From Asticcacaulis machinosus (GTDB lineage: Bacteria; Pseudomonadota; Alphaproteobacteria; Caulobacterales; Caulobacteraceae), in the NCBI RefSeq assembly GCF_028550435.1, contig NZ_JAQQKV010000002.1:372001-436000 (forward strand): a stretch of DNA of 64,000 nt. Direction: 5' to 3'. Below are positions 41,725 through 52,536 of the stretch, one piece after another. The number at the start of each line of letters is the position of its first letter. Position 1 is the stretch's first letter. Position numbers and translations under genes: made by a program. A model generated the notes under the pieces. That model saw only the letters and a list, made by a program, of their open reading frames with translations, was not told the origin of the DNA and did not search any database.

Positions 41725-42792
41725 TTAGGCCGCTACGTTAGCCTGAATACGGATTTGGTCAGCAACGGCTTTTGATACCTGAGAACCGGAGGCGGTGCCG
41801 CCGAGGTCGCGAGTTAAGATACCGGCCTTGATCACCGCCTCAATGGCGGCATCCAGCGTATCGGCCTCTTTGGAAAGGTTCAGGCTGTGACGCAACATCA
41901 TCGAAACTGACTTCAGCGTACCCATCGGGTTGGCCAGATCCTTACCGGCAATATCAGGGGCCGAGCCGTGGATCGGCTCATAAAGACCTTTGCCGGTTGA
42001 ACCGAGCGAGGCCGAGCCCAGCAAACCAATTGAACCCGGCAGGACCGAGGCCAGATCGGACAGGATATCGCCAAACATGTTCTCGGTCAGGATCACGTCG
42101 AAATCCTTGGGGCGGGTCACCAGGTGCATGGCCATGGAATCGACCAGAGCGTGCTCCAGTTCGACATCCGAATATTCAGCCGCATGCAGTTTGTTGACCG
42201 TCTCCCGCCACAGGCGCGAGGTTTCAATGACATTGGCCTTATCGACGCTGGTGACCTTATTGCGGCGCTTACGGGCGGCCTCAAAGGCCACACGGGCGAC
42301 GCGCTCGACTTCTTCTACCGTATAGAGGCACTCGTCAGTGGCGGTCGTCTCGGTGCGGGTACGCTTACCAAAATATAGCCCGCCGGTCAGTTCGCGCACA
42401 ATCAGCATGTCGGCGCCGGAGACGATGTCTTCTTTCAGGGGCGAGCGGAACGCCTGAGAGGGGGCCACATCCATCGGGCGCAGGTTCGCAAACAAGCCCA
42501 TCGATTTGCGCACGGCCAGCAGGCCTTGCTCAGGACGCTTAGGCTTTAAGTCCCACTTCGGGCCACCCACGGCGCCGAGCAAAACCGCATCGGCGGCCAG
42601 ACAGGCCGCGTCAGTATCGGCCGGATAGGGATCATCCACGGTATCGATAGCGATGCCGCCGATCATCTTTTCTTCAAAAGTGAAGTCGTGGCCGAACACG
42701 TCGCCCACGGTTTCCAGCGCTAAGCGGCCAGCGCCGGCGACTTCGGGGCCGATGCCATCACCGGGAAGGATTACGATCTTAAAGGCGCTCAT
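41725..42792 (-). CDS. leuB: 3-isopropylmalate dehydrogenase
   Basis: A 355-residue NAD-dependent decarboxylating dehydrogenase, third step of leucine synthesis. VILPGDGIGPEVAGAG at the start, RELTGGLYFGKR (substrate binding), KANVIETSRLWRE, DILSDLASVLPGSIGLLGSASLG (metal Asp residues) and EPIHGSAPDIAGKDLANP (NAD site) are canonical. The start overlaps the leuD stop by 4 bp. It is the last gene of the long minus-strand BCAA unit. Confidence 0.97.
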   Translation of the reverse strand: MSAFKIVILPGDGIGPEVAGAGRLALETVGDVFGHDFTFEEKMIGGIAIDTVDDPYPADTDAACLAADAVLLGAVGGPKWDLKPKRPEQGLLAVRKSMGLFANLRPMDVAPSQAFRSPLKEDIVSGADMLIVRELTGGLYFGKRTRTETTATDECLYTVEEVERVARVAFEAARKRRNKVTSVDKANVIETSRLWRETVNKLHAAEYSDVELEHALVDSMAMHLVTRPKDFDVILTENMFGDILSDLASVLPGSIGLLGSASLGSTGKGLYEPIHGSAPDIAGKDLANPMGTLKSVSMMLRHSLNLSKEADTLDAAIEAVIKAGILTRDLGGTASGSQVSKAVADQIRIQANVAA

Positions 42793-43379
42793 GCAGCATG
42801 CTCATTTTCATAGGTTTCAATGGCGGGCAGGCGGTTGATCAGCCAGCCCATAGCGTCGACGCCTTCCAGCAGGCACTGGCGCGCAAACGCTTCGATTTTA
42901 AATATAAAGACCGTGCCGTCTTCGAGGCGCAGTTCGTTGGATTCAAGGTCAATGGTCACGCGCTGTTGCGGGTTTTTCAGCAGGTTCTCATGAATTTCCG
43001 GCGTCACAACAATCGGCAACAGACCGTTTTTAAGGCTGTTCGAGGTGAAGATATCGGCGATCTCGGTCGAAATCACAGCCTTGAAACCATAATCGGTCAG
43101 AGCCCAGGGCGCATGCTCACGCGATGAACCGCAGCCGAAATTATTGCCGCCAACCAGCACGCGGTGCTCTTCGGGGTCGATGGTGTTGAGGATAAAGTCG
43201 GGCTTGGGCGTGCCGTCCTTTTCGTAGCGCCAGTCGTTAAATGCCGCGACGCCCAGACCTTTGCGCGACGTGGTCGTCAGAAAACGCGCCGGAATGATCT
43301 GGTCGGTGTCGATATTGGCTTCGGGCAGCACGGCGATGCGCGAGGAGAAGGTGTTGATCGGTTCTTGGTTACTGGCCAT
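42789..43379 (-). CDS. leuD: 3-isopropylmalate dehydratase small subunit
   Basis: A 196-residue swivel-domain subunit that pairs with LeuC to isomerise 2- to 3-isopropylmalate. It has NIDTDQIIPARFL, ILVGGNNFGCGSSREHAPWAL and the FTSNSLKNGLLPIV block, all standard. Length is close to the usual 200. It is coupled to leuB by a 4-bp overlap and separated from leuC by a palindromic repeat. Confidence 0.97.
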   Translation of the reverse strand: MASNQEPINTFSSRIAVLPEANIDTDQIIPARFLTTTSRKGLGVAAFNDWRYEKDGTPKPDFILNTIDPEEHRVLVGGNNFGCGSSREHAPWALTDYGFKAVISTEIADIFTSNSLKNGLLPIVVTPEIHENLLKNPQQRVTIDLESNELRLEDGTVFIFKIEAFARQCLLEGVDAMGWLINRLPAIETYENEHAA

Positions 43380-43393
43380 TTAGGTTCCTTAAT

Positions 43394-43525
43394 CTCCTCC
43401 CCTGTTTACGGGGGAGGTGGCAGGACAAATTTTTTGGACTGACGGAGGGGGCAATTACGGTGGGGCTGCCCCCTCCGTCTTTTGCTAAAGCAAAATCCAC
43501 CTCCCCCGCTATGCAGGGGAGGAGA
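43394..43525. repeat. GC-rich palindromic repeat, copy A (leuC-leuD gap)
   Basis: About 130 bp made of nested inverted repeats: outer CTCCTCCCCTG with CAGGGGAGGAG, next GGGGGAGGTGG with CCACCTCCCCC, and inner GACGGAGGGGGCA with TGCCCCCTCCGTC. A segment of about 40 bp reappears inverted in copy B at 44974-45012. It fills the entire gap between leuC and leuD. Confidence 0.85.
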
Positions 43526-43527
43526 AG

Positions 43528-44934
43528 CTAGGCACTTTGTAAATAGGTTCTGGGGTCGGTGATGTGGCCCGCAATAGCCGACGCCGCGGCGGTAGCCGGT
43601 GAGGCCAGAACGGTCCGCGCCCCCGGCCCCTGACGACCCTCGAAATTGCGGTTGGAGGTCGATACCGCCAACTGGCCAGGTTGCACAAAATCGCCGTTCA
43701 TGGCGATACACATCGAACAGCCCGGCAGACGCCATTCGGCACCGGCATCAGTGAAGATCTTATCCAGCCCTTCGGCCACCGCTTCGGCGCGCACCTGCTC
43801 AGAGCCCGGCACGACCAGCATCCGCACGCCTTCGGCGATATGGCGGCCCTTCATAATCTCAGCCGCCGCCCGCAGATCCGCCATACGGCCATTGGTGCAG
43901 GAACCGATAAAGACGACATCGACCTTGGCCAGCCCACGGGCGTCACCGCCACCAAAGTGCATATATTTCAGAGCCTTGGCTTCGTTCTCATTCGACGCCA
44001 CCGGCACAGCCTGAGAGATGGGCGCGCCCTGATCTGGCGTCGTGCCCCAGGTCGCCATAGGCTCAATTACAGACCCGTCGATGGTGATTTCGTCATCGAA
44101 TACAGCACCGTCGTCGGATTTCAGCTTCAGCCACTCAGTGGCGGCGGCCTCATAGTCGGACGGGACGTAAGCCCGCCCGCGCAGCCACTCAATCGTCTTT
44201 TGATCGGGTGCTATCATGCCACAGCGGGCGCCGGCTTCGATCGACAGGTTACAGACCGTCATGCGCCCTTCCATATCGAGCGCGTCGATCACCGGCCCGC
44301 AATATTCCAGCGCATAGCCGGTGCCACCACCGAAACCGAGGCGATTGATGATGGTCAGCGCCACGTCCTTACCCGACACACCGGCCTGCAATTCACCGGT
44401 CACGGTAATCCGCATGGTCTTGGGCTTGCGCTGGGCCAGACACTGGGTCGCCAGAACGTGACCGACCTCAGAGGTGCCGATGCCAAAGGCGATGCAGCCA
44501 AACGCGCCGTGGGTCGAGGTATGGCTGTCGCCGCACACCACCGTCATGCCCGGCTGGGTCAGGCCCATTTCCGGTCCCATGACGTGGACAACGCCGCGGT
44601 TTTCCGAGCCCCAGCCAAACAGCTTCACACCGTGATTTTTGGTGTTGCGCTCCAAGGTTTCGACCTGATTTTTGGCGTCTGCCGTGAAATAGGGACGCTC
44701 ACCTTTTTCATTGGGCGGCAGGGTCGGGGTCGAATGGTCGAGTGTGGCAAAGGTACGATCCGGACGGCGGACTTTTAAGCCTCGTTCTTCGATCGCCGAA
44801 AAGGCCTGCGGTGAGGTGACCTCGTGGACAAGATGCAGGTCGATATAAAGCACAGCCGGGCGGTCAGCGCTTTCATCCTCGACTATGTGTTTTTCCCATA
44901 CCTTATCAAATAAGGATTTTGGCTGGTCTGACAT
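43528..44934 (-). CDS. leuC: 3-isopropylmalate dehydratase large subunit
   Basis: A 468-residue aconitase-family [4Fe-4S] enzyme. LFDKVWEKH at the start, [36 protein letters not shown] (cluster Cys) and [11 protein letters not shown] (two further cluster Cys) are typical. I place the start at ATG 44934 ([10 protein letters not shown]); a frame extending to 44997 reads through a palindromic repeat ([10 protein letters not shown]) and is not protein-like. Confidence 0.97.
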
Positions 44935-44954
44935 CTTGGATCGTCCTGATATTT

Positions 44955-45113
44955 CTCCTCCCCTGCATCGCGGGGGAGGTGGATTTTGCGTTAGCAAAAG
45001 ACGGAGGGGGCACTACTCGCGCAAATGCCCCCTCCACCACTTCGTGGTCCCCCTCCCCCGCAACATTCAAGTGCGCTATCGCTTCGCTACTTGAGCGCTG
45101 CGGGGAGGAGAAG
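44955..45113. repeat. GC-rich palindromic repeat, copy B (ilvE-leuC gap)
   Basis: About 160 bp with outer arms CTCCTCCCCTGC and GCGGGGAGGAG, internal GGGGGAGGTGG / CCCCCTCCCCC and GGAGGGGGCA / TGCCCCCTCC. It also contains a TTCAAGTGCGC hairpin near its end. The 44974-45012 part matches copy A in inverted orientation with few differences. Confidence 0.85.
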
Positions 45114-45118
45114 AGGAA

Positions 45119-46048
45119 TTAGTTTACCGGCGCTAACCAGTTCCACTTGTCCTCGGTCTCGCCGGTGAACAGGCCGTGGAAGCGCTTTTGGATCAGCTTG
45201 GTGACGTCGCCGGGGCCGCCGACGCGGGTCGGTATACCGTCAACCGAGCGGATCGGTGTGACTTCGGCCGCGGTACCGGTCATGAACACTTCGTCGGCCA
45301 GATAGAGCATCTCGCGCGGCAGAACCTGCTCGATGACTTCGATGCCTTCCGCGCGGGCCAGTTGGATCACGGTGTCGCGGGTGATGCCGCCGAGGATCGA
45401 CGCGGCCAGAGGCGGCGTATAGATCTTGCCCTTCTGGATCAGGAACAGGTTTTCACCGGCCCCTTCGGACAGCAGGCCATCACGGCCCAGACCCAGACCT
45501 TCGGCAAAGCCGCGCTCACGGGCTTCATAGCCGATCAGATAGGACGACAGGTAGTTACCGCCCGCCTTAGCGCCGGTCGGAATGGTGTTCGGTGCCGCGC
45601 GGTTCCAGGACGAAACGCAGACATCAACCCCTTTGAGCAAGCCTTCTTCGCCCAGATAGGCGCCCCACGGGAATGCGGCGATGGCGACATCAACCGAGAC
45701 GTTTTCCTTTTTCGGGGTTACACCCATGCCGCATTCGCCCAGGAAAGCGATGGGGCGCAGGTAAGCGCTTTTGAGGTTGTTGGCGCGGACAATTTCGCGG
45801 CAGGCATCGTTGATCTGATCGACCGTATACGGCAGTTGGATATGATAAATCCGGGCCGAGTCGATCAGGCGCTGGGAGTGCTCATTCAGGCGGAAAATAA
45901 CCGGGCCGTTGGGCGTGTCATAGGCGCGCACGCCCTCAAAAACCGAGGTGCCGTAGTGCAGGGCATGGGTCATGACGTGGATAGTGGCGTCTTCCCACGG
46001 GATCAGCTTGCCGTTGAACCAGATCGTATCAGCGAGTTTCTTATTCAT
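45119..46048 (-). CDS. ilvE: Branched-chain amino acid aminotransferase
   Basis: A 309-residue PLP enzyme of fold class IV, the last step for Leu, Ile and Val. WFNGKLIPWEDATIHVMTHALHYGTSVFEG, RLIDSARIYH, the PLP lysine in TGAKAGGNYLSS (about residue 158), LLSEGAGENLF and GITRDTVIQLA are standard. It lies between the acetolactate synthase genes and leuC on the minus strand. Confidence 0.96.
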   Translation of the reverse strand: MNKKLADTIWFNGKLIPWEDATIHVMTHALHYGTSVFEGVRAYDTPNGPVIFRLNEHSQRLIDSARIYHIQLPYTVDQINDACREIVRANNLKSAYLRPIAFLGECGMGVTPKKENVSVDVAIAAFPWGAYLGEEGLLKGVDVCVSSWNRAAPNTIPTGAKAGGNYLSSYLIGYEARERGFAEGLGLGRDGLLSEGAGENLFLIQKGKIYTPPLAASILGGITRDTVIQLARAEGIEVIEQVLPREMLYLADEVFMTGTAAEVTPIRSVDGIPTRVGGPGDVTKLIQKRFHGLFTGETEDKWNWLAPVN

Positions 46049-46237: not shown

Positions 46238-46504
46238 TCAGGCCGTCAATTTCTGAGCGGCGGCGGCTTTGCGCGGTTCGGCTACGCGTTTAAGACCATA
46301 CAGGCGGTCGATCTGCGCGTGCAGGGTTTCAATGCGGCGATGCGATTCCTTTGGGCGGGCCGTTACCGTCAGACCGCGGGTCTTTTCATCGATTGGATAC
46401 ATTTCGATCGCATCGATGAAAAAACCGCGCCGCTCAATGAGGCCCAGAACCCGCAGGAGTGTGCCGTCGAGATCGTCAATCTCAATATGAATCAAGTGGC
46501 TCAT
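46238..46504 (-). CDS. Acetolactate synthase small subunit (short ACT type, IlvM-like)
   Basis: An 88-residue single ACT-domain protein: HLIHIEIDDLDGTLLRVLGLIERRGFFIDAIEMYP and RGLTVTARPKESHRRIETLHAQIDRLYGL. It is half the length of IlvN/IlvH and resembles enterobacterial IlvM. It would bind and stabilise the large subunit; valine feedback through such short subunits is often weak. It overlaps the end of the large-subunit gene by 23 bp, so the pairing is firm. Confidence 0.88.
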   Translation of the reverse strand: MSHLIHIEIDDLDGTLLRVLGLIERRGFFIDAIEMYPIDEKTRGLTVTARPKESHRRIETLHAQIDRLYGLKRVAEPRKAAAAQKLTA

Positions 46505-48170
46505 CCCAACGCTCCTCCATCATTTCCGCATTCGACGCGCCCGGCGGCACCAGCGGCCAGACGTTTTCGCGCGGATCAATCAAAATATGCAACAAGGTCG
46601 GCTTATCCGCCGCCAACAGGCGATCCAGCGCGCCATCGACCTCATCGCGGCTGGTGATACGGAAGGCATCAAGGCCAAAGGCCTGCGCCACCACCACGAA
46701 ATCCGGATTGTCGGAAAGGTCGATTTCCGAATAGTTTTCTTCGTAAAACAGACGCTGCCACTGACGCACCAGCCCCAGGGACGAATTATCCAGCAGGACG
46801 ATCTTCAACGGAATACCGTAACGACGAAGCGTCGCCATTTCCTGAATGTTCATCATGAACGAACCGTCGCCGGACACCGTCACCACATGGTGATCCGGCA
46901 GGGCCAGCTTGGCGCCCAGACCGGCGGGCAGGCCATAGCCCATCGCCCCTGAACCACCTGAGGTCAGATGGGCGCGGTTTTGCAGGAACTGGCAATGCTG
47001 CGCGACCCACATCTGATGCTGACCGACATCGCAGGCGGCGACGAATTTCTCACCGGCCTTTTCAGACAGCAGTTTCAGCAGGGCCGGCGCATAGATGCCG
47101 GTGCCCGGTGCATCATAGCGGAAAGCGTGTTTTTTCTTGTCGGACTTGCACTTGGCGACCCACAGGGAGATGTCCTGCATCTTGGGGTGCAGGCCGTCCA
47201 GAACGGTTTTCAAGTCGCCGACAATACCGACATCGGCTTTACGCAGCTTGTTGATTTCGGCGGCGTCGATATCGACATGAACAATCTTGGCATGGGGCGC
47301 AAAGGCCGACAGCTTACCTGTGGCCCGGTCATCAAAGCGCGCGCCCAGAACGATCAGCAGATCGGAGTCTTGCACGGCAATATTGGCCGCGCGGGTGCCG
47401 TGCATGCCCAACATGCCGAGGAACAGATCATCATTGGTCGGTATAGCCCCCAGCCCCTTCAGGGTCGAGACGACCGGAATACCGGTGCGGTCCATCAGAG
47501 CGCGCAGTTGCGGCACAGCAAAGGCCATTTCGACCCCGCCGCCGATATAGAACAGCGGCTTATGGGCCTGAGAAATCAGTTTCTCGGCGGCCTTGATATC
47601 GGCCTCTTCCGGTTGCGGCGGCTGCCACGACGGGAACTCACCGGTGGTCGGCACGTCCTTGACAAAGGCGGCGGCGACGTCCTTGGGGATATCAACCAGA
47701 ACCGGGCCCGGACGGCCTTCCTGAGCGATCTGGAAGGCGCGCGACAGAATGGCGGGGATTTCCGCGGGATCACGAACCAGCCATGAGTGCTTCACGATCG
47801 GCAGGGTCAGGCCCAGGATATCGACTTCCTGAAAGCCATCGGTGCCCAACAGGTGCGTGCCGACCTGACCGGTAATGCAGACCATCGGCACCGAGTCCAT
47901 ATAGGCGTTAGCGATGCCGGTAATCAGATTGGTGGCGCCGGGACCGGAGGTGGCCATGCAAACGCCGACCTTACCCGTCGCGCGGGCATAGGCATCGGCG
48001 GCAAAGGACGCGCCCTGTTCGTGGCGAACCAGAATGTGCGTGAGGCCGGAGCCTGCCAACGCATCATAGATCGGCATGATCGCCCCGCCGGGATAGCCGA
48101 ACAGGATATCCACGCCGAGAGCCCTCAGCGTCGAAATTACCAATTGTGCTCCGGTCGGTTGGTTTATCAT
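46482..48170 (-). CDS. ilvB: Acetolactate synthase large subunit
   Basis: A 562-residue thiamine-diphosphate enzyme making acetolactate or acetohydroxybutyrate. LFGYPGGAIMPIYDAL, RHEQGASFAADAYARATGKVG (catalytic Glu), SGPGATNLITGIANAY, GARFDDRATGKL (FAD region) and the ThDP motif SGDGSFMMNIQEMATLRRY ... LDNSSLG are present. Size and pairing with a short ACT subunit recall IlvG-IlvM. The symbol is by family. Confidence 0.95.
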   Translation of the reverse strand: MINQPTGAQLVISTLRALGVDILFGYPGGAIMPIYDALAGSGLTHILVRHEQGASFAADAYARATGKVGVCMATSGPGATNLITGIANAYMDSVPMVCITGQVGTHLLGTDGFQEVDILGLTLPIVKHSWLVRDPAEIPAILSRAFQIAQEGRPGPVLVDIPKDVAAAFVKDVPTTGEFPSWQPPQPEEADIKAAEKLISQAHKPLFYIGGGVEMAFAVPQLRALMDRTGIPVVSTLKGLGAIPTNDDLFLGMLGMHGTRAANIAVQDSDLLIVLGARFDDRATGKLSAFAPHAKIVHVDIDAAEINKLRKADVGIVGDLKTVLDGLHPKMQDISLWVAKCKSDKKKHAFRYDAPGTGIYAPALLKLLSEKAGEKFVAACDVGQHQMWVAQHCQFLQNRAHLTSGGSGAMGYGLPAGLGAKLALPDHHVVTVSGDGSFMMNIQEMATLRRYGIPLKIVLLDNSSLGLVRQWQRLFYEENYSEIDLSDNPDFVVVAQAFGLDAFRITSRDEVDGALDRLLAADKPTLLHILIDPRENVWPLVPPGASNAEMMEERWDEPLDSY

Positions 48171-48192: not shown

Positions 48193-48346
48193 ACCTCCCC
48201 TCTTGGAGGGGAGGGGAACCGCAAGCCCGCTCCTGTGCGGGCTATGCGGTGGTGGGGTAAATCCACAAGCGCGAGCCTGGGAGGCTACCCCCTCTGACAT
48301 CAAAATCAGATTTTAATGTCAGCTCCCCCTGCAACAGGGGGAGTTC
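48193..48346. repeat. Palindromic repeat, copy C (ilvC-ilvB gap)
   Basis: About 150 bp with paired blocks: CCTCCCC with GGGGAGG, AGCCCGC with GCGGGCT, CTGACAT with ATGTCAG and CCCCCTG with CAGGGGG. The sequence differs in detail from copies A and B but has the same building plan and occupies the same kind of position, a gap inside the operon. Confidence 0.65.
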
Positions 48347-48352
48347 TTTTAG

Positions 48353-49354
48353 TTAGCCGTTGCCCTTATCCTGCAACCAAGACATGCGCGAACGCAGGTC
48401 ACGGCCGGTGTGCTCGATCGGGTGATCCAGATCCTGACGCATCAGAGCGGTGTAGCGCGGACGGCCGGCCATGTTCTCAAGAATCCAGTCGCGGGCAAAA
48501 TCGCCGGACTGAATGTCGTTGAGGACTTCCTGCATACGCTCACGGGTTTCTTCGTTGATGATGCGCGGGCCGGAAACCAGATCGCCGTACTTACAGGTCT
48601 CGGACACGAACGAGTGCATCTTGGCGAAACCGCCTTCGTACAGCAGGTCAACGATCAGCTTCAGTTCGTGCAGAACTTCAAAGTAAGCGATTTCCGGACG
48701 GTAACCGGCTTCGACCAGGGTTTCAAAGCCCATCAGAACCAGCTCGGTCGTGCCACCGCACAGAACGGCCTGTTCACCGAACAGATCGGTTTCGGTTTCT
48801 TCCTTGAAGGTCGTCTCGATAACGCCACCAACGGTGCCGCCGATGCCACGGGCATAGCCCAGAGCACGTTGAGCGGCCTTGCCGGTCACATCGCGATCAA
48901 CGGCGAACAGCGACGGCACGCCGCGGCCACGTTGATATTCACGGCGCACGAGATCGCCCGGGCCCTTCGGCGCCACCAGAATAACGTCGAGGTCGGCACG
49001 GGCATCGACGCGGCCGTAGAGGACCGAGAAGCCGTGGGCGAAAAGGATCGACGCGCCCTTAGCGGCGTAAGGGGCGATGTCATTGGTGTAGATTTCGGCA
49101 TGGCTCATGTCCGGCGTCAGGATGGCGATGATGGTCGCGTCCTTAACGGCATCCTTGATTTCTGCGGTCGGCAGACCGTCATGCTTGGCCTTTTCATAGC
49201 CAGCGCCGCCGGTGCGCACGCCGACGATGACGTCAACGCCGGAATCGCGCAGGTTCTGGGCGTGAGCGCGGCCTTGTGAGCCGTAGCCAACGATGGCGAC
49301 GCGTTCGCCCTTCAAGCTGTCGGCGGAAACGTCGTCATTAGTATAGATTTTCAC
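48353..49354 (-). CDS. ilvC: Ketol-acid reductoisomerase
   Basis: A 333-residue class I enzyme of valine and isoleucine synthesis. [22 protein letters not shown] is the NADPH site, with [45 protein letters not shown] and [12 protein letters not shown]. The start is GTG at 49354 (KIYTNDD follows) with CAGGAGTA upstream; an in-frame start at 49393 adds a sequence outside the family. The IlvD-domain gene lies 93 bp upstream. Confidence 0.96.
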
Positions 49355-49447
49355 GAAGATACTCCTGAAAGTTCGTGTAGCGTTTTTAGACAAAGTGGGT
49401 GGATGGTGTTTATGGTGAGGGCCATAAATACGAAAAAACCGGGCCTG

Positions 49448-50029
49448 TTAAGAGGCCGCGGTCATAACACGTGCATATTTTTCAAGCGCCGGATGGCCCT
49501 GATAGCCACGGGCCGGGGCCGTGAAGCTGGATTTACGGCCGGACAAGTCCGCCGCAGTGTCGATACGGCGCGATGCAGCATCGATGGTGATGATGTCACC
49601 GTCGCGCAAACGACCGATAGCGCCACCCGCCTGCGCCGCCGGGGCACAGTTGCCAACGATCATGGCGTGCGAGGTCGAACCTGCGATATGGCCGTCGCTG
49701 ATCAGGGCGATGCCGGTGATGCCGGACTGCTCAATGGCGTCAACGATATCGCGCAGATCGGTTTTGTGGCGAATGATGATGGCGGTGCCGGACGCGATCT
49801 CACCGGCGCGGATAGCGGCAATGGCCGTCATCTCGTCCTCGAAAACGCGGGCAGCACCTTCGAAGCGCTCACCAAAGCCCGACAGCTTCAGAATGCCGCC
49901 GACCGGGGCAATGCTGCCATGAAGAATCGCAAAGCCTGACGATACTACCGCTTGGGCAACCGTAAGCGGCGCCGTCATAAAGACAGTGGCTTCGGTGGCG
50001 GTCGGGGTCATCTTGATTTGCGCGTTCAT
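49448..50029 (-). CDS. Stand-alone IlvD/Edd C-terminal-domain-like protein
   Basis: A 193-residue protein aligned over most of its length with the C-terminal swivel domain of dihydroxy-acid dehydratase. AILHGSIAPVGGILKLSG matches the domain entry, FEGAARVFEDEMTAIAAI matches [11 protein letters not shown]-type sequence in the full IlvD at 50671, and LISDGHIAGSTSHAMIVGN matches [18 protein letters not shown]. The catalytic Ser and the Arg of GRFSG are replaced (GHIAG), and the iron-sulfur domain is absent, so dehydratase activity is not expected. It is the first structural gene behind the leader peptide and attenuator and 93 bp ahead of ilvC. The ATG at 50029 has GAAGAG upstream. Confidence 0.8.
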   Translation of the reverse strand: MNAQIKMTPTATEATVFMTAPLTVAQAVVSSGFAILHGSIAPVGGILKLSGFGERFEGAARVFEDEMTAIAAIRAGEIASGTAIIIRHKTDLRDIVDAIEQSGITGIALISDGHIAGSTSHAMIVGNCAPAAQAGGAIGRLRDGDIITIDAASRRIDTAADLSGRKSSFTAPARGYQGHPALEKYARVMTAAS

Positions 50030-50068: not shown

Positions 50069-50098
50069 AAAAATCCCCGCTTCCGGGGGCGGAGCGGG
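50069..50098 (-). terminator. Attenuator terminator of the ilv-leu operon
   Basis: On the minus strand CCCGCTCC and GGAAGCGGGG form a GC-rich hairpin followed by ATTTTTG. It lies 40 bases after the leader-peptide stop and 40 bases before the first structural gene, the classical attenuator position. Confidence 0.72.
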
Positions 50099-50138
50099 AG
50101 ACTGATTTAGGCCATTGATTTGGTCTGAAACCGTGTGG

Positions 50139-50273
50139 TCACCACTCCGCGATCATGGGGCGTACCACGCCCACGATAAGTAGCGATACAATAGATACCA
50201 ATGAGACGAGCGACATCGCCAGCGCCTTGCGGCCCTCGGTCTTGTCCATCGCTATAGCAATAGCTTTCGTCAC
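50139..50273 (-). CDS. ilv leader peptide
   Basis: A 44-residue frame from GTG at 50273 (GGAG ten bases upstream), or 36 residues from ATG at 50249. Its end carries SLVSLVSIVSLLIVGVV: thirteen of sixteen codons from the first Leu on are Leu, Val or Ile. This is the control-codon pattern of ilv leader peptides, and an intrinsic terminator follows at the right distance. Ribosome stalling under branched-chain amino acid shortage would allow read-through into the IlvD-domain gene and ilvC. A small membrane protein is the alternative reading. Confidence 0.65.
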   Translation of the reverse strand: MTKAIAIAMDKTEGRKALAMSLVSLVSIVSLLIVGVVRPMIAEW

Positions 50274-50670
50274 AGCAGGTAAACTCCATCTGGCCTCAGC
50301 ATATATAGCTTTGGCTTGGGATGACTATATGCCTGATCGGTTTTAAAAAAGCAAAGGAAAAAGTGGAAAAATTTTTCTTAAAAAATCGCATCCCCGCGAT
50401 GTTTTGGAATTAATTTTTCAAATTACGCCATATTGAGAAATTATTTTTCCAATAAGGACATCATTCATGCCAAAACGTGCGCGACTCTGCGGCTTTGTGA
50501 AAGGCTTTTTCGCGCCGCAAAATGCGCCGGCAGACTGCATTCTGCTTCATCATCATACATCAGTCTTGCCAACTTGACCATTAGGCTTATATGCCAGCCT
50601 TAAAAGGCTTATAATGCCTTGGATTATTTGCGAATTGATCTCACCTCGCCGCAGTTAAGGAATCTGGATC
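50274..50670. promoter_or_regulatory. Divergent control region of ilvD and the ilv-leu operon
   Basis: 397 bp, AT-rich between 50340 and 50470. On the minus strand TATAGT (50329-50324) with TTGCTT (50354-50349) is a weak promoter candidate with a long 19-base spacer. On the plus strand a 36-codon frame starts at ATG 50467 behind AAGGA and ends at 50577; it may be a leader of ilvD or chance, and is not rich in branched-chain codons. Confidence 0.4.
50467..50577 (+). CDS. Possible small leader ORF upstream of ilvD
   Basis: A 36-codon frame with AAGGA eight bases before its ATG. The peptide is basic at the start (MPKRARLCGFVKGFF) and contains three histidines in a row near its end. No similarity is recognised. 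Its place 93 bp before ilvD fits a leader or a spurious frame equally well. Confidence 0.25.
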   Translation: MPKRARLCGFVKGFFAPQNAPADCILLHHHTSVLPT

Positions 50671-52536
50671 ATGCCTGCCTATCGTTCCCGCACCACCACT
50701 TTTGGCCGCAATATGGCAGGCGCACGCGCGCTATGGCGGGCGACCGGTATGACCGATTCTGATTTCACCAAGCCGATTATCGCGGTCGTCAACTCCTTCA
50801 CCCAGTTCGTGCCGGGCCATGTGCATCTGAAAGACCTGGGGCAAATGGTGGCGCGTGAGATCGAAAAAGCGGGCGGCGTCGCCAAGGAATTCAACACCAT
50901 CGCGGTCGATGACGGTATCGCTATGGGCCACGGCGGCATGCTCTATTCCCTGCCCTCACGCGACCTGATCGCTGACAGCGTCGAATATATGGTCAATGCC
51001 CACTGCGCCGACGCGATGGTCTGTATCTCCAACTGCGATAAGATCACGCCGGGAATGCTGATGGCCGCCATGCGCCTCAATATTCCGGCTGTATTCGTCT
51101 CCGGCGGGCCGATGGAAGCCGGTAAGGTCGTGTGGCCCGATAAGGACGGGGTGGCTAAAACCCACGCGCTTGATCTGGTCGATGCGATGGTGCAGGCCGC
51201 CGATGACAATATCTCGGACGCGCAGGTCAAGGCCGTCGAAGAAGCCGCGTGTCCTACCTGCGGGTCGTGTTCGGGCATGTTCACCGCCAATTCGATGAAC
51301 TGCCTGACTGAGGCATTAGGATTATCGCTCCCCGGCAACGGTACGGTTCTGGCCACCCACTCAGACCGCGAGCGCCTGTTTAAAAATGTCGGTCAGATGA
51401 TCGTCGATATCACCAAGCGCTATTATGAAGGCAATGACGAGTCGGTCTTGCCGCGCTCGATTGCCTCCTATGCGGCGTTTGAAAACGCCATGCGCCTTGA
51501 TGTGGCGATGGGTGGGTCGACCAACACGGTTCTGCACCTGCTGGCGGCGGCGTCCGAAGCCGGTGTCAATTTCAAGATGGCTGATATCGACCGGATTTCG
51601 CGCACCACGCCGTGCCTGTGTAAGGTGGCACCGGCTACGTCAGATGTGCATATCGAAGATGTTCACCGCGCCGGCGGCATCATGTCGATCCTCGGCGAAC
51701 TGGCGCGTGGTGGCTTGTTGAACACGGAATTGCCGACAGTGCATTCCCCGACACTGGGCCATGCGCTGGCCTATTGGGATATCCGGGTCACCAATGACGA
51801 AGAGGTCGATACCTTCTTCAAGGCCGCCCCCGGTGGCGTGCGCACCACTCAGGCGTTCTCGCAATCCAAGCGCTGGCCGGACCTCGATAAAGACCGCGAA
51901 AAGGGCGTCATCCGCTCGGTCGAGCACGCCTTTACCAAGGACGGCGGGTTGGCGGTGCTCTACGGCAATATCGCCGAAAAAGGCTGCATCGTGAAAACGG
52001 CGGGGGTCGATGAATCGATCTGGAAGTTCTCTGGCCGCGCCCGGGTGTTTGAATCTCAGGAAGACTCGGTTGACGCCATCCTGAAGAACCAGATCAAGGA
52101 GGGCGATGTCGTCGTCATCCGTTATGAGGGCCCCAAGGGCGGGCCGGGTATGCAGGAAATGTTGTACCCGACCTCCTACCTCAAATCCAAGGGCATGGGT
52201 AAGGTGTGTGCGCTTCTGACCGACGGGCGTTTCTCCGGCGGCACGTCCGGCCTTTCCATCGGTCACGTCAGCCCGGAAGCGGGCGAAGGTGGGGCGATCG
52301 CCCTGGTCGAAGAAGGCGATACCATCGACATCGATATCCCCAACCGCACCATTGATCTGCGCGTGACTATGGAAGAACTGGCCCATCGTCGCGCCAAGGA
52401 AGAAGCCCGTGGCCAGGAGGCCTTTACGCCCAAGAACCGCGAGCGCTATGTGTCGGCGGCCTTGCAAGCCTATGCAGCCCTGACCACCTCAGCCGACACC
52501 GGCGCCGTGCGCGATTTGAGCCAGTTGAAGCGGTAA
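50671..52536 (+). CDS. ilvD: Dihydroxy-acid dehydratase
   Basis: A 621-residue iron-sulfur enzyme for the common Val/Ile/Leu step. [55 protein letters not shown] (cluster Cys), [36 protein letters not shown] and [23 protein letters not shown] (catalytic Ser) are all intact. It is transcribed away from the rest of the ilv-leu operon. Length is in the usual range. Confidence 0.97.

Follow-up and report, generated by a model that had tools for sequence, protein, structure and literature searches.

The locus described here lies in a 64,000-nt stretch of the Asticcacaulis machinosus genome (contig NZ_JAQQKV010000002.1), referred to below as the window, in which genes of branched-chain amino acid biosynthesis follow one another on the minus strand (Table 1). 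A stand-alone C-terminal domain of IlvD comes first and is followed by ilvC, ilvB, a small regulatory subunit gene, ilvE, leuC, leuD and leuB, an order that had been proposed from the sequence and was confirmed by Pfam and NCBIfam. A full-length ilvD runs divergently from this operon and is the only IlvD match over the TIGR00110 cut-off in the genome; leuA-like genes are found elsewhere in the genome. A short leader ORF and an intrinsic terminator stand ahead of the IlvD fragment.

Table 1. Coordinates of the leader, its RNA segments and the surrounding genes in the window.
Feature	Position	Strand	Basis
Candidate promoter, CTTTGC(TT) -35-like and TATAGT -10-like	50324..50356	-	conserved block, by eye
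Shine-Dalgarno GGAG, 10 nt before the GTG start	50284..50287	-	sequence; GGAG before the start in many relatives too
Leader peptide ORF, GTG 50273 to TGA 50141-50139, 44 codons + stop	50139..50273	-	sequence; kept in 25/25 genomes
Control-codon run L V S L V S I V S L L I V G V V	50163..50210	-	sequence, leader comparison, folding
Segment 1, CUACUU (Leu-Leu codons), pairs with segment 2	50178..50183	-	RNAalifold helix, 95.5% of cells paired
Inner hairpin AUCGUGGGCGU..ACGCCCCAUGAU, nested in the 1:2 helix	50152..50177	-	three pairs changed on both sides, 97% of cells paired
Segment 2, GGAGUGG, over the Glu-Trp codons just before the stop	50142..50148	-	invariant in 25/25 genomes; pairs with segment 3
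Segment 3, CCGCUCC, common to antiterminator and terminator	50091..50097	-	invariant; folding
Intrinsic terminator: segment 3, segment 4 (AGCGGG 50081-50076) and T-run	50069..50098	-	sequence, folding, pair counts
Stand-alone IlvD C-terminal domain ORF (ILV_EDD_C), 193 aa, first gene past the putative attenuator	49448..50029	-	PF24877, E 8e-29
ilvC	48353..49354	-	Pfam/NCBIfam
ilvB (ilvG-type acetolactate synthase large subunit)	46482..48170	-	NF006524, above cut-off
Small ACT-domain regulatory subunit, ilvM/ilvN-like, 88 aa	46238..46504	-	PF13710
ilvE	45119..46048	-	Pfam/NCBIfam
leuC	43528..44934	-	PF00330
leuD	42789..43379	-	PF00694
leuB	41725..42792	-	PF00180
Divergent full-length ilvD, PRK12448 class, outside the operon	50671..52536	+	NF009103, 1171 bits

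The leader ORF encodes VTKAIAIAMDKTEGRKALAMSLVSLVSIVSLLIVGVVRPMIAEW and includes the codon run SLVSLVSIVSLLIVGVV exactly as it was first read on the minus strand, except that the frame was then thought to end at this run; RPMIAEW follows before the stop. No other ORF among the 634 of 25-80 codons on both strands of the window has 10 Leu, Ile or Val codons per 14. Codon choice is also unusual, with GTA making up 62% of the leader Val codons vs 7% in the operon genes, and CTA 19% of the leader Leu codons vs 1%; the choice of CTA and CTT partly serves RNA pairing. At the position of the candidate promoter, TTGC and an ATAT-containing -10 are kept across 24 aligned upstream regions, and a strict consensus promoter scan did not detect this promoter. 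In many relatives (e.g., at loci L009, L011 and L020) a block, TTTTGCTGCA..GCCGTAATA, is strongly conserved upstream of the leader promoter. Its place in the window is about 50395-50430, and the window's own clade is without it. The block may be the promoter of the divergent ilvD or a regulator site.

The terminator, CCCGCTCCGCCCCCGGAAGCGGGGATTTTT, begins 40 nt after the stop codon, where a GC-rich hairpin with a T-run had been noted, and is formed by CCCGCT (50098-50093) and AGCGGG (50081-50076) with the T-run reaching 50069. Three pairings compete in the leader RNA, namely 1:2, 2:3 (the antiterminator) and 3:4 (the terminator), and folding revealed a terminator and antiterminator pair, mutually exclusive and sharing the 5′ arm of the terminator. 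With the alignment as its sole input, RNAalifold returned the terminator, the 1:2 helix CUNCUU:GGAGUGG and, nested within that helix, the hairpin GGGCGU..ACGCCC, in which three pairs have changed on both sides; 97.5% of cells are paired in this structure, compared with 42-58% after sliding by one to three columns. The 2:3 helix GGAGUGG:CCGCUCC is 100% paired in every genome of the genus and has no covariation there because segments 2 and 3 never vary, segment 3 serving two helices. Complementarity of segments 2 and 3 was found in 36/36 leaders, 11 of them from other families, and 26 exceed 95% of shuffles. Outside the genus, the pairing is kept with altered sequence and register (e.g., GGAGCGG, GAGCGGG or GGGAGC against a matching terminator arm). 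Within the small clade to which the window belongs, the 2:3 pairing is not significant against shuffles (p 0.06-0.44) because the tail is GC-rich, and the folding energy of the whole leader has a z of only -1.5.

The effect of a translating ribosome was modelled by removing the RNA beneath it, codon by codon, and folding the remainder. In this in silico analysis, stalls on L-L-I-V-G-V-V led to the antiterminator and positions from the Pro codon onward to the terminator, in the window and in most genomes; in G005, G007-G009, G019 and G020, equilibrium folding at the control codons favoured the antiterminator partly or not at all. A fixed default to antitermination in the free leader was considered and dropped because the untranslated fold differs among genomes and RNAalifold gives the 1:2 helix.

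Within Asticcacaulis the arrangement is kept throughout. All 25 genomes have a leader ORF that carries the Leu/Ile/Val run (9-12 such codons per 14) and ends in EW-stop, and GGAGTGG, CTCCCGCTCC and the GCGGG-T-run are present in each of them. The original prediction had named loss of the codon run among relatives as the finding that would speak against it; the comparison found the run retained in every case. In an alignment of 23 leaders, GGAGTGGT, CTCCCGCTCC, GCGGG and the core of the T-run are invariant. A motif scan of genome contigs matched Asticcacaulis and scattered unrelated genomes; the latter matches are presumed to be chance. Named Asticcacaulis genomes share the motif, and their fragment proteins are identical to ones in the compared set, which places that set in this genus.

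The anatomy of the leader, its conservation, its mutually exclusive pairings and its bias toward rare codons are direct observations, and together with the codon distance they make transcriptional attenuation by charged-tRNA supply, as first proposed, the best reading. Judging from the sequence, it is highly probable that the leader works by ribosome-mediated attenuation, responding to the supply of charged Leu-, Val- and Ile-tRNA and controlling the operon of the IlvD C-terminal domain, ilvC, ilvB and small subunit genes; its control probably extends to ilvE and leuCDB. Shortage of any of these tRNAs would stall the ribosome in the S-L-V-S-L-V-S-I-V-S-L-L-I-V-G-V-V run, where it would cover segment 1 and leave segment 2 free to pair with segment 3; the antiterminator would form and RNA polymerase would read on. 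With a good supply, the ribosome would reach the Pro..Trp-stop codons and cover segment 2, segment 3 would pair with segment 4 and transcription would stop. The stalling, the termination and the response to amino acids in this scheme are what we infer. The mechanism itself is known and ordinary, and the leader is a new member of it.

Part of the peptide is hydrophobic and an AIAIA motif is conserved at its N-terminus, as would be expected if the ORF encoded a real small hydrophobic membrane protein and the terminator were a constitutive one between two units. This is very unlikely, since the last two codons, for Glu and Trp, lie over an RNA segment that never varies and is complementary to the terminator arm, the run uses the rare codons GTA and CTA, and the peptide drifts widely among families whereas the Leu/Val/Ile density and the pairing persist. 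It is scarcely credible that the structured leader, for all its mutually exclusive helices, is a metabolite-binding riboswitch or a protein-binding leader with an incidental ORF, given that the ORF and codon run are kept in every genome and that an Rfam search of the leader, at gathering and relaxed scores, gave no relevant family match, amino-acid leaders included.

The further proposal that every branched-chain gene other than ilvD and leuA is governed from this single point fared less well. Gaps of about 150-190 nt follow ilvC, ilvN, ilvE and leuC, several of them with palindromes or terminator-like sites, and the claim of a single control point is weakened because a second, divergent ilvC, 45% identical to that of the operon, sits on another contig (G000:C4:149330-150268, locus L122). 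Neither this second ilvC nor the distant leuA was seen to have a Leu-rich leader upstream. The contig of the second ilvC also bears an IlvD/Edd-family gene ~11 kb away. On the minus strand, terminator-like hairpins lie at 48194-48214, between ilvC and ilvB, and at 49442-49457, where the IlvD C-domain gene ends; they could lower downstream expression. The intergenic gaps flanking leuC on both sides carry an 83-nt inverted repeat (43444-43526 and 44953-45035, 88% complementary) with GC-rich arms that contain palindromes, which looks like a dispersed intergenic repeat.

The first gene of the operon requires an explanation of its own. Residues 30-192 of the fragment align with the C-terminal domain of the dihydroxy-acid dehydratase (DHAD) IlvD (PF24877; e.g., 6ovt residues 420-593; E 2.6e-23). 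Unlike IlvD, however, the fragment is without the N-terminal domain and the key active-site motifs; ILV_EDD_C is the only domain found, so it does not have the make-up of a functional dihydroxy-acid dehydratase. The GRFSGAS motif is degenerate and the APxAxxGG segment is deleted in one clade. Catalysis by the fragment is unlikely because its active-site motifs are lost or degenerate, and it is probably a non-catalytic protein. The fragments form one group against the full-length IlvD domains of other families (support 99/93), and among 80 sampled Caulobacteraceae genomes clear stand-alone copies are confined to Asticcacaulis, the remaining short frames coming from fragmented assemblies, where several of them abut the end of a contig.

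The origin of the fragment is suggested by leaders outside the genus. When the Asticcacaulis leaders were turned into a covariance model, it matched leaders in other families of the order, with modest E values (1e-4 to 0.1); a second match was seen in the window's own genome (E 0.02). In these families, a Leu/Val/Ile-rich leader precedes a full-length ilvD of 557-575 aa, and ilvC (50-69% identity to that of the window) and ilvB (44-68%) come next; in one further genome, G058, the downstream genes are ordered differently and the leader is weaker. This comparison indicates that the leader descends from an ancestral leader-ilvD-ilvC-ilvB operon, which other families of the order have kept. Because a related leader precedes a full-length ilvD heading the same operon, the fragment is read as the C-terminal domain remnant of that ilvD. 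The simplest account would be that the first gene lost its N-terminal domain once and that the divergent ilvD provides the dehydratase activity. The presence elsewhere in the order of a related leader with a full-length ilvD-ilvC-ilvB operon is new and explains where the fragment came from.

The remnant is kept open in 25/25 Asticcacaulis genomes and is under purifying selection, its dN/dS lying mostly at 0.04-0.2 and reaching 0.28 at most. Its invariant residues include F33, I35, H37, G38 and R61-V62-F63, and its predicted model, of moderate confidence (pLDDT 70, pTM 0.63), resembles the DHAD C-terminal region in the PDB. All of this is at odds with a decaying pseudogene kept merely by its position between leader and ilvC, which we regard as improbable, although the loss of active-site motifs, the deletion in one clade and the fast evolution of the fragment, with only 34-46% identity between clades, are what such decay would produce. 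It is possible, though less likely than not, that the fragment is a functional, non-catalytic protein that arose by truncation of the first gene of the attenuator and was fixed genus-wide. Such a protein might, for instance, bind or regulate the full-length IlvD encoded divergently, or sense intermediates of the pathway.

These findings describe a well-conserved and testable probable branched-chain attenuator in a lineage of stalked bacteria, with a leader and operon unlike the Caulobacter type. The regulatory leader appears to have outlived the loss of a domain from the gene first under its control, and the analysis points to a conserved half-enzyme kept across the genus Asticcacaulis.

Enterobacterial ilv, leu, trp and his attenuators of the Yanofsky type consist of a leader peptide with control codons, segments 1-4 and a terminator before the first structural gene. 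The Asticcacaulis leader likewise has control codons, four such segments and a terminator in this place; it differs from them in being longer, with segment 1 inside the control codons and segment 2 over the last codons of the leader. In Caulobacter crescentus an ilvBN attenuator has been described (Tarleton et al., 1994, as cited in PMC4117421); it belongs to the same bacterial family and has branched-chain control codons and a terminator. The Asticcacaulis leader would work in like manner, but the leader and its operon differ from the Caulobacter type: other Caulobacteraceae have short candidate ilvB leaders, about 11-20 codons with a few Ile/Val/Leu codons and then a terminator, before an ilvB that is about 47% identical and not orthologous to that of the window. 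The GGAGTGG/CTCCCGCTCC motif was not found outside Asticcacaulis in the family sample, and the ilvC upstream regions of other Caulobacteraceae have no comparable leader. At loci L074-L086, short leader-like ORFs (e.g., VRTFLIVLRKRPSAA and VRTALIVLRRRPFSA) followed by a terminator precede the ilvB match by roughly 130-250 nt and make up a second, separate family of candidate branched-chain leaders. Leader peptides of alphaproteobacterial ilvB genes have also been predicted by comparative genomics (Vitreschak et al., 2004, noted in PMC1273637). The same mechanism is predicted there within the class, whereas the Asticcacaulis leader and its relatives precede ilvD or an ilvD remnant.
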